Both the position numbers and the translations under genes were made by a program. A stretch of DNA of 64,000 nt from Geobacter sp. DSM 9736 (GTDB lineage: Bacteria; Desulfobacterota; Desulfuromonadia; Geobacterales; Geobacteraceae): NCBI RefSeq assembly GCF_900187405.1, contig NZ_LT896716.1, forward strand, positions 3,410,753 through 3,474,752. The letters run 5' to 3'. The notes under the pieces were generated by a model. The model had not been told where the DNA came from, made no database searches, and worked only from the letters and a program-made list of their open reading frames with translations. Shown piece by piece: positions 49,088-50,870 of the stretch; within the stretch, counting starts at the first letter, position 1; each line of letters starts with the position of its first letter.

Positions 49088-49567
49088 CTACCATGCGGTG
49101 GACATCCCCCGATGGATCAGCCATGCGACGGTGGCGTACCGGATCGTCTTTCCGGTGAAGACCAGCACTGAAAAGTTGATGAACCGGACCTTCAATATCC
49201 CTCCTACGAGGCACATAGGGTCCCCGACTATGGGGAGCCATGAGAAGAGAAGGGACCAGGAGCCGTAGCGGGTGTACAGTTTTTCAGCCCTCTGCTGGGC
49301 GTTTTCGTCTATACGGAGGAGTTTCCGGATCATGAAGTCACCTCCCCTGAGTCCAATCCAGTAAGTGGTGCAGGCTCCCAGGTAGTTGCCGATGGAAGCC
49401 ACCGCGACGGACGCAACGGGGTCGTGCTTTTTGAGGAGCATGGTGACGAGCAGCCATTCCGAACCGAGGGGTACGAGACTCGAAGCGAGAAAGCTCAGCA
49501 GGAAGAGGGCAGGATATCCGTGTGCAACAAGCAGATCGTTCACCGGCCAAAGGTAGCGGAAGCTCAT
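49088..49567 (-). CDS. YqaA/DedA-like small membrane protein
   Basis: A 159-residue membrane protein with about four hydrophobic segments (LFLLSFLASSLVPLGSEWLLV, VASVAVASIGNYLGACTTYWIGL, LLFSWLPIVGDPMCLVGGIL, FSVLVFTGKTIRYATVAWLI). The G-x(n)-S-x-P-x-G-D pattern and the membrane re-entrant SWLPIVGDP loop are those of the VTT/DedA-type family. Homologues are implicated in membrane homeostasis and lipid flipping. Its start is only 54 bases from the divergent aro leader peptide, so the promoters must overlap. Confidence 0.82.
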   Translation of the reverse strand: MSFRYLWPVNDLLVAHGYPALFLLSFLASSLVPLGSEWLLVTMLLKKHDPVASVAVASIGNYLGACTTYWIGLRGGDFMIRKLLRIDENAQQRAEKLYTRYGSWSLLFSWLPIVGDPMCLVGGILKVRFINFSVLVFTGKTIRYATVAWLIHRGMSTAW

Positions 49568-49620
49568 TTCTTTGTCAAAAGCAAATTAGAGCTTGACAGA
49601 TAACTGCAAAAGGAGCAAAT

Positions 49621-49713
49621 ATGCACCCCATGATTAACGCCAGCTACTTTACCTTTACCGGCTTTTATTTTTGGTACGGCTTTTTTCGGCCGTCTGCCCA
49701 GGTACCGGTTTGA
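49621..49713 (+). CDS. Aromatic-rich attenuator leader peptide of the DAHP synthase gene
   Basis: A 30-codon ORF with an AAAGGAG ribosome binding site. Ten of the fourteen codons from 9 to 22 are aromatic: Tyr9, Phe10, Phe12, Phe15, Tyr16, Phe17, Trp18, Tyr19, Phe21, Phe22. The ORF ends 29 bases before an intrinsic terminator stem that precedes the first enzyme of aromatic amino acid synthesis. This is the layout of pheL/trpL-type leaders, where ribosome stalling on scarce aminoacyl-tRNAs decides between terminator and antiterminator. Unlike E. coli pheL or trpL, all three aromatic residues are read. No similarity to a named leader is claimed. The upstream promoter is not clear; a TTGACA at 49593 is too close to the ORF. 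Confidence 0.82.
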   Translation: MHPMINASYFTFTGFYFWYGFFRPSAQVPV

Positions 49714-49741
49714 GATAGGAGCTGACATACTACGAAACCGA

Positions 49742-49776
49742 AGCCGAGGGTGGACGAATCCATCCCCGGCTTTTTT
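49742..49776 (+). terminator. Attenuator terminator between leader peptide and aroF
   Basis: A 13-pair stem, AGCCGAGGGTGGA/TCCATCCCCGGCT with one mismatch and one G-T, a CGAA loop, and a T6 tract. The upstream gene is on the other strand, so its only plausible target is the aroF leader transcript. CCGAAGCCG at its 5' edge could pair with the CGGCTTTTTTCGG of the leader ORF (four bulged T) as an antiterminator. Confidence 0.8.
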
Positions 49777-49781
49777 CATTC

Positions 49782-49822
49782 ATGCTGCAAAGCATAAGGC
49801 CGGGGGGAATCTCTCCGGCCTT
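49782..49822 (+). other. Two further hairpins before aroF
   Basis: ATGCT/AGCAT with a GCAA loop (49782-49795) is followed by AAGGCCGG/CCGGCCTT (49796-49822), which can extend by four more pairs. A short T-rich stretch follows (TTTGCTGTTT). It may be a second weak terminator or a leader structure; the aroF ribosome binding site is outside it. Confidence 0.45.
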
Positions 49823-49850
49823 TGCTGTTTCGGAACCAAGGAGGAGGAGC

Positions 49851-50870
49851 ATGATCATCGTCATGAAAGCGGGAGCCGCAAAAAAAGACAGGGACGAAGT
49901 GATCAAGAGGATCAAGGAGCTGGGATACAAGCCCCACGTCATTCACGGGACAACCAGGGACGTCATCGGCGCTGTGGGGGACGAGCGTGGAAAGCTGGTC
50001 CTTCAGTCCATAGAGTCGATGCATGGGGTCGAGAATGTGGTGCCTATCCTCAAGCCGTACAAGCTTGCCTCGAAAGAGGTGAAGTTTGAGCCGAGTGTCA
50101 TTCCCGTCACGAGCTCGTTGGCTGTCGGAGGAAAGCGTCTTGTAGTGATGGCCGGTCCCTGTTCCGTGGAGAGCGAGGCGCAGATCCTGGAATCGGCGAA
50201 AGCGGTGAAGGAGGCGGGGGCGACGGTGCTTCGAGGCGGAGCGTTCAAACCGCGAACGTCTCCTTACTCATTCCAGGGGCTAGAGGAGGACGGACTGAAG
50301 CTGCTCGCAAAGGCACGTGATCTTACGGGACTTCCCGTCGTAACCGAAGTGGTGAACCCGGAAACGGCAGACCTGGTGGCTGAATATGCCGACATCCTCC
50401 AGATCGGCGCCAGAAATTCGCAGAACTTCGCCCTCCTCAAAAAAGTCGGGCAGCTCAAGAAGCCGGTCCTCCTGAAGCGAGGGATGTCCATGACCATCCA
50501 GGAGTTCCTCATGAGCGCCGAATACATCATGAGCGAAGGCAACCAGGCGGTCATTCTTTGCGAGAGGGGAATAAGGACGTTCGAGACTGCAACTAGAAAC
50601 ACCCTAGATCTCTCCGCGATACCCGTCCTCAAGGAGAAAACGCATCTGCCGGTGATCGCAGACCCTTCCCACGGTACCGGTGATTACCACTATGTTGCCG
50701 CCATGTCATGCGCCGCAGTCGCGGCAGGAGCTGACGGGCTTATCATAGAAGTGCATCCCGACCCGGAACGCGCCTCCTCCGACGGACCCCAGTCTCTTAA
50801 GCCGAAGAAATTCGCGAGCCTCATGGAAAGGCTGAGGAAAATATCCCAGGCAATGGATCGGGACCTGTAG
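49851..50870 (+). CDS. aroF: 3-deoxy-7-phosphoheptulonate (DAHP) synthase, type I-beta
   Basis: A 339-residue protein. The ATG at 49851 follows AGGAGGAGG. The first 70 residues form a ferredoxin-like (ACT-like) regulatory domain as in the Thermotoga-type enzyme, where Tyr or Phe binding controls activity. The TIM-barrel catalytic domain has [43 protein letters not shown] and DPSHGTGD, including the metal-binding Cys, His, Glu and Asp set. It condenses PEP and erythrose-4-phosphate in the first committed shikimate step. Control appears to be double: feedback through the N-terminal domain and transcription attenuation through the leader. Confidence 0.96.

Follow-up and report, generated by a model that had tools for sequence, protein, structure and literature searches.

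The aroF gene of Geobacter sp. DSM 9736 occupies positions 49851–50870 on the plus strand of the window, by which we mean the whole stretch of 64,000 nucleotides that was analysed. It encodes a type I-beta 3-deoxy-7-phosphoheptulonate (DAHP) synthase of 339 amino acids (PRK08673, E 9e-156; TIGR01361, E 6e-119), with family matches to PRK08673 and DAHP_synth_Bsub in NCBIfam and to DAHP_synth_1 plus an FXD domain in Pfam. Its Shine-Dalgarno region, GGAGGAGGAG, is read directly at 49840–49849 on the same strand. The open frame of aroF continues for another 69 nt upstream, to an ATG at 49782, from which automatic annotation could derive an AroF of 362 instead of 339 amino acids; annotation between 49782 and 49851 needs care, with the aroF frame entering the tail of the putative attenuator. 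The nearest gene upstream encodes a VTT-domain protein (49088–49567, Pfam PF09335, E 9e-12) and lies on the minus strand. A divergent upstream gene and a DAHP synthase gene downstream had both been named in the original prediction, and both identifications stand, the latter through Pfam and NCBIfam. The same genome carries two further DAHP-synthase-like genes (L001 and L003), one of which appears by eye to be type I-alpha-like while the other is type I-beta with 53% identity.

Between the divergent gene and aroF lies an open reading frame of 30 codons (49621–49713) with ten codons for Phe, Tyr or Trp, at codons 9, 10, 12, 15–19, 21 and 22 counted from 49621. The prediction of ten such codons among codons 9–22 thus holds, and no denser stretch exists in the 64 kb: in all six frames, the two best 15-codon stop-free stretches (10 aromatic codons out of 15) and all eight with at least 8 fall within this leader. 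The conserved start is nevertheless not the predicted one at 49621 but the ATG at 49630, codon 4 of that frame, which is aligned in 80 of 80 rows (the window and 79 relatives) and stands 12–13 codons 5′ of a Phe-Trp pair in every one of them. Read from there, the probably leaderless leader comprises 27 codons and a stop on the plus strand (49630–49713; profile E 5e-12), and its aromatic codons, 10 in the window and 8–13 across the 80 rows, are of the kind expected in the leader frame of a classical attenuator. The consensus peptide is MxxxxxFxxFxFxFWYGFYFRPSARxxVx. Its most conserved aromatic block is F12-Y13-F14-W15-Y16, encoded at 49663–49677 of the plus strand, which we regard as the putative sensor block and which includes the conserved Trp codon. 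This codon is present in 80/80 rows of the window's order (Geobacterales) and in 18/18 rows from other orders of the class, as is the Gly codon, although the rows were anchored on a W-x-G pattern and the invariance is therefore to be read as 79 of 80 aroF loci carrying that pattern and not as an independent count.

The start of transcription probably coincides with the start of translation. A −35 element, TTGACA, is located at 49593–49598 (plus strand) with a likely but weak −10 element around 49616–49622, and the spacing to the leader ATG is conserved in 80/80 rows: counted from the first base of the hexamer, which reads TTGACA in 78 rows and TTGACT in 2, the ATG follows after 35–38 nt. The base at −1 of the ATG is C or T in all 80 rows of the order, and a Shine-Dalgarno-like match is found in only two of the 80, of which the window is one (GGAG ending 14 nt 5′ of the ATG). 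Since the TTGACA–ATG spacing is conserved and a Shine-Dalgarno sequence is mostly missing, the leader of the window's order is probably translated from a leaderless transcript that starts at or near AUG 49630. The ribosome binding site originally ascribed to the frame does not fit this arrangement; AAGGAG (49610–49615) lies 5′ of the likely −10 region, between it and TTGACA, and would therefore be absent from the transcript of that promoter. Initiation at 49621 with AAGGAG as ribosome binding site was rejected as the main start and would be possible given a promoter further upstream. A promoter scan of 49300–50000 returned no site, not even that of the leader itself, owing to the weak −10 element.

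The leader is a widespread companion of aroF. Loci of relatives were collected by a scan for AroF, of which the best 80 of 389 were kept without reference to the leader, and an in-frame aromatic leader was found in 79 of these 80; its stop codon precedes aroF by 132–170 nt in the rows of the order, window included. The sole aroF locus without the leader (L050) has aroF close behind another open frame, which by eye resembles a gene for a response-regulator receiver domain. A class-wide profile built from 34 leaders (threshold E 0.01) matched 181 of 277 genomes of the class. By our count, the window's order contributes 133 of these from its 141 genomes, and the other orders contribute 48 from 136; in the window's genome there was no second match at E up to 1. 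Across the phylum, a sample of 395 genomes contained 11 matches, all inside the class, and none among the approximately 378 sampled genomes outside it (taking unlisted rows as outside), bearing in mind that the profile is very short and that more distant leaders could escape detection. Among the located matches listed from other orders, with weaker matches left out, aroF lies 3′ of the leader in all 18 loci, one of them cut by a contig end, at 150–245 nt past the leader stop codon and with 69–76% identity. Two genomes, G171 (L148 and L149) and G263 (L165 and L166), have two leader copies, each before an aroF-like frame; assembly duplication is possible in both, and the aroF of L148 runs into a contig end, while the best match in L166 covers the first 41 residues only. 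Within the window's genome, the leader profile had no match near the two other DAHP-synthase-like genes. The upstream regions of trpE, a second trpE-like gene and pheA offered at best a short frame with 3 aromatic residues in 10 codons, and the single terminator-like site found for trpE is weak and close to the average of shuffles. Searches of Rfam, Pfam and NCBIfam returned no family for the leader element.

The end of the leader frame and the region behind it contain a set of mutually exclusive pairings. Segment 1 (ACGGC, 49676–49680, plus strand), which makes up codons Tyr16-Gly17, pairs with 49689–49693, the beginning of segment 2, and thus forms a hairpin of the pause or protector type known from classical attenuators. 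This helix 1:2 is paired in 91.6% of alignment cells, CGGC/GCCG becoming CGGT/ACCG in 6 of 79 rows, and still in 68.9% when slid by +3; the GG of segment 1 is paired in the folded hairpin in 97/97 rows, with a shifted register in a few. Segment 2 (GCCGTCTGCCC, 49689–49699, plus strand) has its best downstream partner in the window in the 5′ arm of the terminator. Its portion at 49691–49699, which falls in the R-P-S-A codons, is the 5′ arm of an antiterminator and pairs with 49748–49756. The antiterminator is extended apically by pairing of 49706–49711 (plus strand), reaching to the leader stop codon, with 49735–49740; in the window this is the best duplex between the leader tail and the region downstream, and its register differs among clades. 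Segment 3 (49735–49756, plus strand) accordingly comprises the 3′ side of the apical extension and the 3′ arm at 49748–49756 and overlaps the terminator 5′ arm, so that a structure with its 5′ arm inside the leader frame excludes the terminator. The original prediction had left the antiterminator open; it is now assigned to segments 2 and 3, and the 1:2 hairpin is added to it.

Helix 2:3 is paired in 91.4% of cells of the 79-row alignment as against 36–49% when slid by 1–3 columns, and has 18 cells with two-sided changes against 4.8 in shuffles, a number reached in 0 of 500. The positions of these changes are less telling: those of helix 2:3 sit on 2 of 9 pairs (matched by 185/500 shuffles) and those of helix 1:2 on 1 of 5 (243/500), so for both helices just the cell counts stand out, and these ignore kinship. 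The types observed, CTGCC/GGCAG, CTGCC with GGCGG or GGTGG, and CCACC/GGTGG, describe a path via G·U pairs, with a separate type, CTACC/GGTAG, in L114, and in all 300 permutations the segments pair better with their own partners than with swapped ones. In some rows, a minority, the leader tail has its best duplex elsewhere, often in hairpin 2.

Terminator 1 (49741–49776, plus strand) is an intrinsic terminator between the leader frame and aroF, with a stem at 49741–49772 and a T-run at 49771–49776. The predicted stem of 13 base pairs followed by T6 is confirmed, with one A·C mismatch, and its folding energy of −19.9 kcal/mol is far below that of dinucleotide shuffles (z −4.5, 1 of 200 as good). 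The alignment register of this helix is ambiguous, a one-column slide giving 78.8% paired cells against 73.8%. The antiterminator hairpin is lower in energy than the terminator hairpin (−26.6 against −19.8 kcal/mol) and is made first during transcription. The equilibrium fold of the RNA at 49687–49776 that a stalled ribosome would leave exposed nonetheless contains the terminator (−30.7 kcal/mol, z only −1.7). Because equilibrium favours the terminator, the switch would have to act during transcription, and read-through would require a kinetically trapped, earlier-made antiterminator. The T-tract of terminator 1 is poor in 10 of 79 rows, mostly of the Geomonas/Citrifermentans clade (L044, L049, L052, L057, L058, L067, L072, L074, L085 and L098), with 2–4 T in the nine bases counted from its end, and several of these rows break the simple 2:3 register. 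In the same ten rows hairpin 2 has 4–6 T, and the terminating hairpin may there have shifted to hairpin 2.

We consider it very likely that aroF is under the control of a classical ribosome-mediated transcription attenuator, the best explanation of this arrangement. Transcription would begin at, or a few bases from, the leader AUG, and a ribosome would translate the 27-codon peptide while RNA polymerase runs ahead. With charged tRNA for Phe, Tyr or Trp in short supply, the ribosome would stall in codons 12–16 (F-Y-F-W-Y) and hide segment 1, leaving segment 2 free to pair with segment 3, which would block the terminator and allow aroF to be transcribed. When all three amino acids are plentiful, the ribosome would either reach the stop codon and rest on segment 2 or depart and let the 1:2 hairpin form; segment 3 would then join the terminator 3′ arm, and transcription would be expected to stop near 49776. 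The complementarities on which this scheme is built, and their conservation, are directly visible in the alignments; the stalling, the starvation response and the termination are what they would imply. The leading edge of a ribosome lies about 16 nt past the P-site codon. Taking this general value, a ribosome with Trp15 (49672–49674) in its A site would reach to about 49685, past segment 1 and short of 49689, so that by this geometry a stall would hide segment 1 and leave segment 2 accessible, while a ribosome at the stop codon (49711–49713) would cover most of segment 2. We propose that shortage of any one of the three amino acids would open aroF, because the block F12-Y13-F14-W15-Y16 is positioned for a stall of the first kind, and from the conserved Trp codon and the well-placed mix of Phe and Tyr codons we infer that Phe, Tyr and Trp are all sensed. 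A comparison of relatives for conserved aromatic codons and compensatory stem changes had been suggested as a check of the original prediction; both were found, and the comparative evidence supports the reading of the aroF leader as a ribosome-mediated attenuator.

A further structure that was absent from the original prediction lies downstream of terminator 1. Hairpin 2 (49796–49822, plus strand) is GC-rich and a possible second terminator; it is paired in 97.3% of cells, with 36 two-sided cells against 9.2 in shuffles. Its T-tail is usually weaker than that of terminator 1, and hairpin 2 might take over termination in the rows with a weak T-tract. Both hairpins are enclosed by a closing stem, the 3′ strand of which (49827–49833, plus strand) forms seven pairs with 49738–49744 and is separated by 6 nt from the aroF Shine-Dalgarno region; in the window the stem shares 49741–49744 with the foot of the terminator stem. 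The closing stem was judged by permutation instead of by an alignment count since its register shifts by one column between clades (types CCGAAA/TTTCGG, CCACAAA/TTTGTGG, CCAAAAG/CTTTTGG and CCGGAA/TTCCGG), and own partners give −11.2 against −8.9 kcal/mol for swapped ones, with 0 of 300 permutations as good. The other orders have another stem at this location (−20.4 own against −17.9 swapped, equalled by 3 of 1000 permutations; 13 of 18 rows, the five left out being those where the search pattern located no hairpin 2), and both permutation tests ignore kinship. The predicted helix in these orders often extends from the U-tract side of the terminator to the Shine-Dalgarno sequence. When the region 3′ of the terminator stem is folded, the optimal structure has half or more of the Shine-Dalgarno sequence paired in 16 of 18 rows, with a partner that is sometimes not the U-tract. 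With the first 20 nt, the Shine-Dalgarno sequence has a mean pairing of 0.54 in the other orders and 0.41 in the 79 rows of the order; shuffled upstream sequence gives 0.17 in both cases. These figures are only suggestive, because shuffling disperses the U-tract and overall Shine-Dalgarno pairing is close to its control (0.72 in the other orders and 0.62 in the order, with controls of 0.62 and 0.60, respectively). Among L146–L163, several rows have a predicted pairing of the U-rich terminator tail with the aroF Shine-Dalgarno sequence, which is likewise suggestive. A domino link joining hairpin 2, through its 5′ arm, to the 3′ arm of terminator 1 was tried and rejected: 93.1% of its cells are complementary, but it has one two-sided cell against 1.0 in shuffles, its covariation score is reached by 20 of 500 shuffles, its own partners win all 300 permutations by just 0.4 kcal/mol, and the complementarity was not seen in the other orders. 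The sole two-sided hint of such a link is in L105, where CCCCGAC in the terminator 3′ arm and GTCGGGG in the hairpin 2 5′ arm have changed together.

These downstream structures invite the explanation that the leader is a device of two stages, in which hairpin 2 is a second terminator, or the closing stem and the U-tract gate the aroF Shine-Dalgarno sequence, and both transcription and translation are controlled. The strong conservation and compensatory changes of hairpin 2 argue for it, as do the covariation of the closing stem within the order and of its different counterpart in the other orders, where the helix reaches the Shine-Dalgarno sequence and pairing with the first 20 nt exceeds that of shuffles. 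We nevertheless regard it as unlikely: the overall pairing of the Shine-Dalgarno sequence is hardly above the shuffles, the U-tract figure being just suggestive; within the order the closing stem crosses the pairing of U-tract and Shine-Dalgarno sequence; the domino between terminator 1 and hairpin 2 has no more two-sided cells than shuffles, and its complementarity was not seen in the other orders; and at least three of the 18 rows of those orders (L152, L154 and L157) have no clear hairpin 2. Rather doubtful, too, is a combined scheme of a leaderless attenuator that is read twice, in which one ribosome position would set terminator 1 as well as hairpin 2, the closing stem and perhaps the U-tract facing the aroF ribosome binding site, such that an OR-type sensor for three amino acids would govern transcription and translation jointly.

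Other explanations dispense with codon starvation. The ribosome of TnaC stalls in response to tryptophan, and the nascent peptide FWxGF...RPSA could similarly arrest its own ribosome on an aromatic ligand. The peptide is conserved class-wide, with Trp and Gly in 80/80 rows of the order, anchored as these are, and in 18/18 of the others. The Gly codons, GGC or GGT, nevertheless make up segment 1 and change in concert with segment 2, which accounts for the conserved Gly at the RNA level, and the RPSA codons are segment 2 itself. In L104 a one-base deletion shifts the reading frame so that the peptide ends in SRLPGF, while CGTCTGCCC is intact, and this sequence is thus kept as RNA. L104 is also the exception among the gap runs in the alignment of the leader end, eight of nine of which are 3 bases long, whereas gaps downstream of the leader are of many sizes; together, the frameshift and the gap pattern speak against the RPSA residues as a peptide signal. 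L058, L084, L167 and L170, moreover, carry SRS, SRF or similar residues where the other leaders have RPS, and arrest by the peptide seems very improbable to us. We give still less credence to an unregulated, constitutive gene for a small protein with its own ordinary terminator and a separate promoter for aroF. Terminators right behind short genes are common, and a promoter scan that missed even the leader's own site could also miss a weak internal promoter; such a gene would, however, hardly keep the aromatic codons, the mutually exclusive pairings and their compensatory changes, nor be followed by aroF in all 18 loci outside the order. Least credible of all, to the point of being exceedingly improbable, is a T-box or metabolite-binding RNA that controls the terminator above an incidental reading frame. 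The leader is in part a strongly conserved RNA, as such a sensor would be, but 49400–50100 contains no match to any Rfam family at gathering score, leader and T-box families included, and the frame is present in 79 of 80 loci with leader-end gaps of three bases in eight cases of nine. A trans-acting role that the leader peptide might have, on the precedent of peTrpL, was considered as well.

With attenuation by the translating ribosome as the preferred reading, the leader can be compared with known systems. In the enterobacterial trpL and pheL attenuators a leader frame with regulatory codons is followed by segments pairing as 1:2, 2:3 and 3:4, with a terminator before the structural gene. The aroF leader shares the regulatory-codon frame, the three pairings and the terminator with them; it differs in combining Phe, Tyr and Trp codons in one leader, in having the first common enzyme of the pathway as its target, in being probably leaderless and in its second conserved hairpin downstream. 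The gene called aroF in a 2005 paper on tyrA presumably encodes, judging by the nomenclature, a different enzyme. That paper lists attenuators predicted by a web database (PMC1173090). A candidate attenuator leader peptide with the signature F-Y-F has been described for aroF (cg1129) of Corynebacterium glutamicum (PMC4046766, PMC3890552); it resembles ours in standing before a DAHP synthase gene and in its Phe-Tyr-Phe, while it is phylogenetically remote and, comparing by description, is presented in the relevant passages with neither a Trp codon nor RNA pairings (PMC4046766). In Acholeplasma, uORFC-13-1 lies upstream of aroF with a terminator directly after it, and attenuation was proposed, as here (PMC8632094). 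It differs in having a U-run coding for at least one Phe, a ribosome binding site and 24 representatives, and the description in that source, our only basis of comparison, includes no Tyr or Trp codons (PMC8632094). Attenuation of E. coli aroF had been hypothesised earlier, according to the same source (PMC8632094). For leaderless initiation there is a precedent in trpL of Sinorhizobium meliloti, the transcript of which begins at the ATG of the leader peptide (PMC7298713), as we propose for aroF, although that is a Trp leader before trpE(G) and thus differs in gene and codons (PMC7298713). A leaderless leader peptide of C. glutamicum ilvBNC is known to us from a title cited in PMC4046766. An actinobacterial survey reports, in the part that concerns them, Phe/Tyr operons without conserved RNA structures (PMC1262725), and Geobacter does not occur in the main text of a 2010 survey of premature terminators (PMC2965389). 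We found no report of an aroF leader element in Geobacter or its class in the openly licensed literature, supplements lying outside the scope of the search.

The aroF leader is very probably a new and unusually well-conserved case of classical ribosome-mediated attenuation, distinguished by the codons for three aromatic amino acids in one leader, the probably leaderless start in one order and the extra conserved structure. One leader appears to sense all three end products at the first step that they share, which provides a comparative, testable model for the likely control of entry into aromatic synthesis in the Geobacter order and many other members of the class. The 18 rows of other orders differ in initiation: 14 have a Shine-Dalgarno-like sequence and none has TTGACA within 60 nt. 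A similar peptide and RNA switch, led by a Shine-Dalgarno sequence in most rows of the other orders and apparently leaderless in the window's order, is a natural contrast that can be used to ask whether leaderless initiation alters the coupling of ribosome and polymerase. In a quick tree of AroF proteins, comprising 96 of 97 rows with one short protein left out, the rows of the order are separated from the others by one branch with a support of 100, and the change between the two modes of initiation therefore probably happened once.
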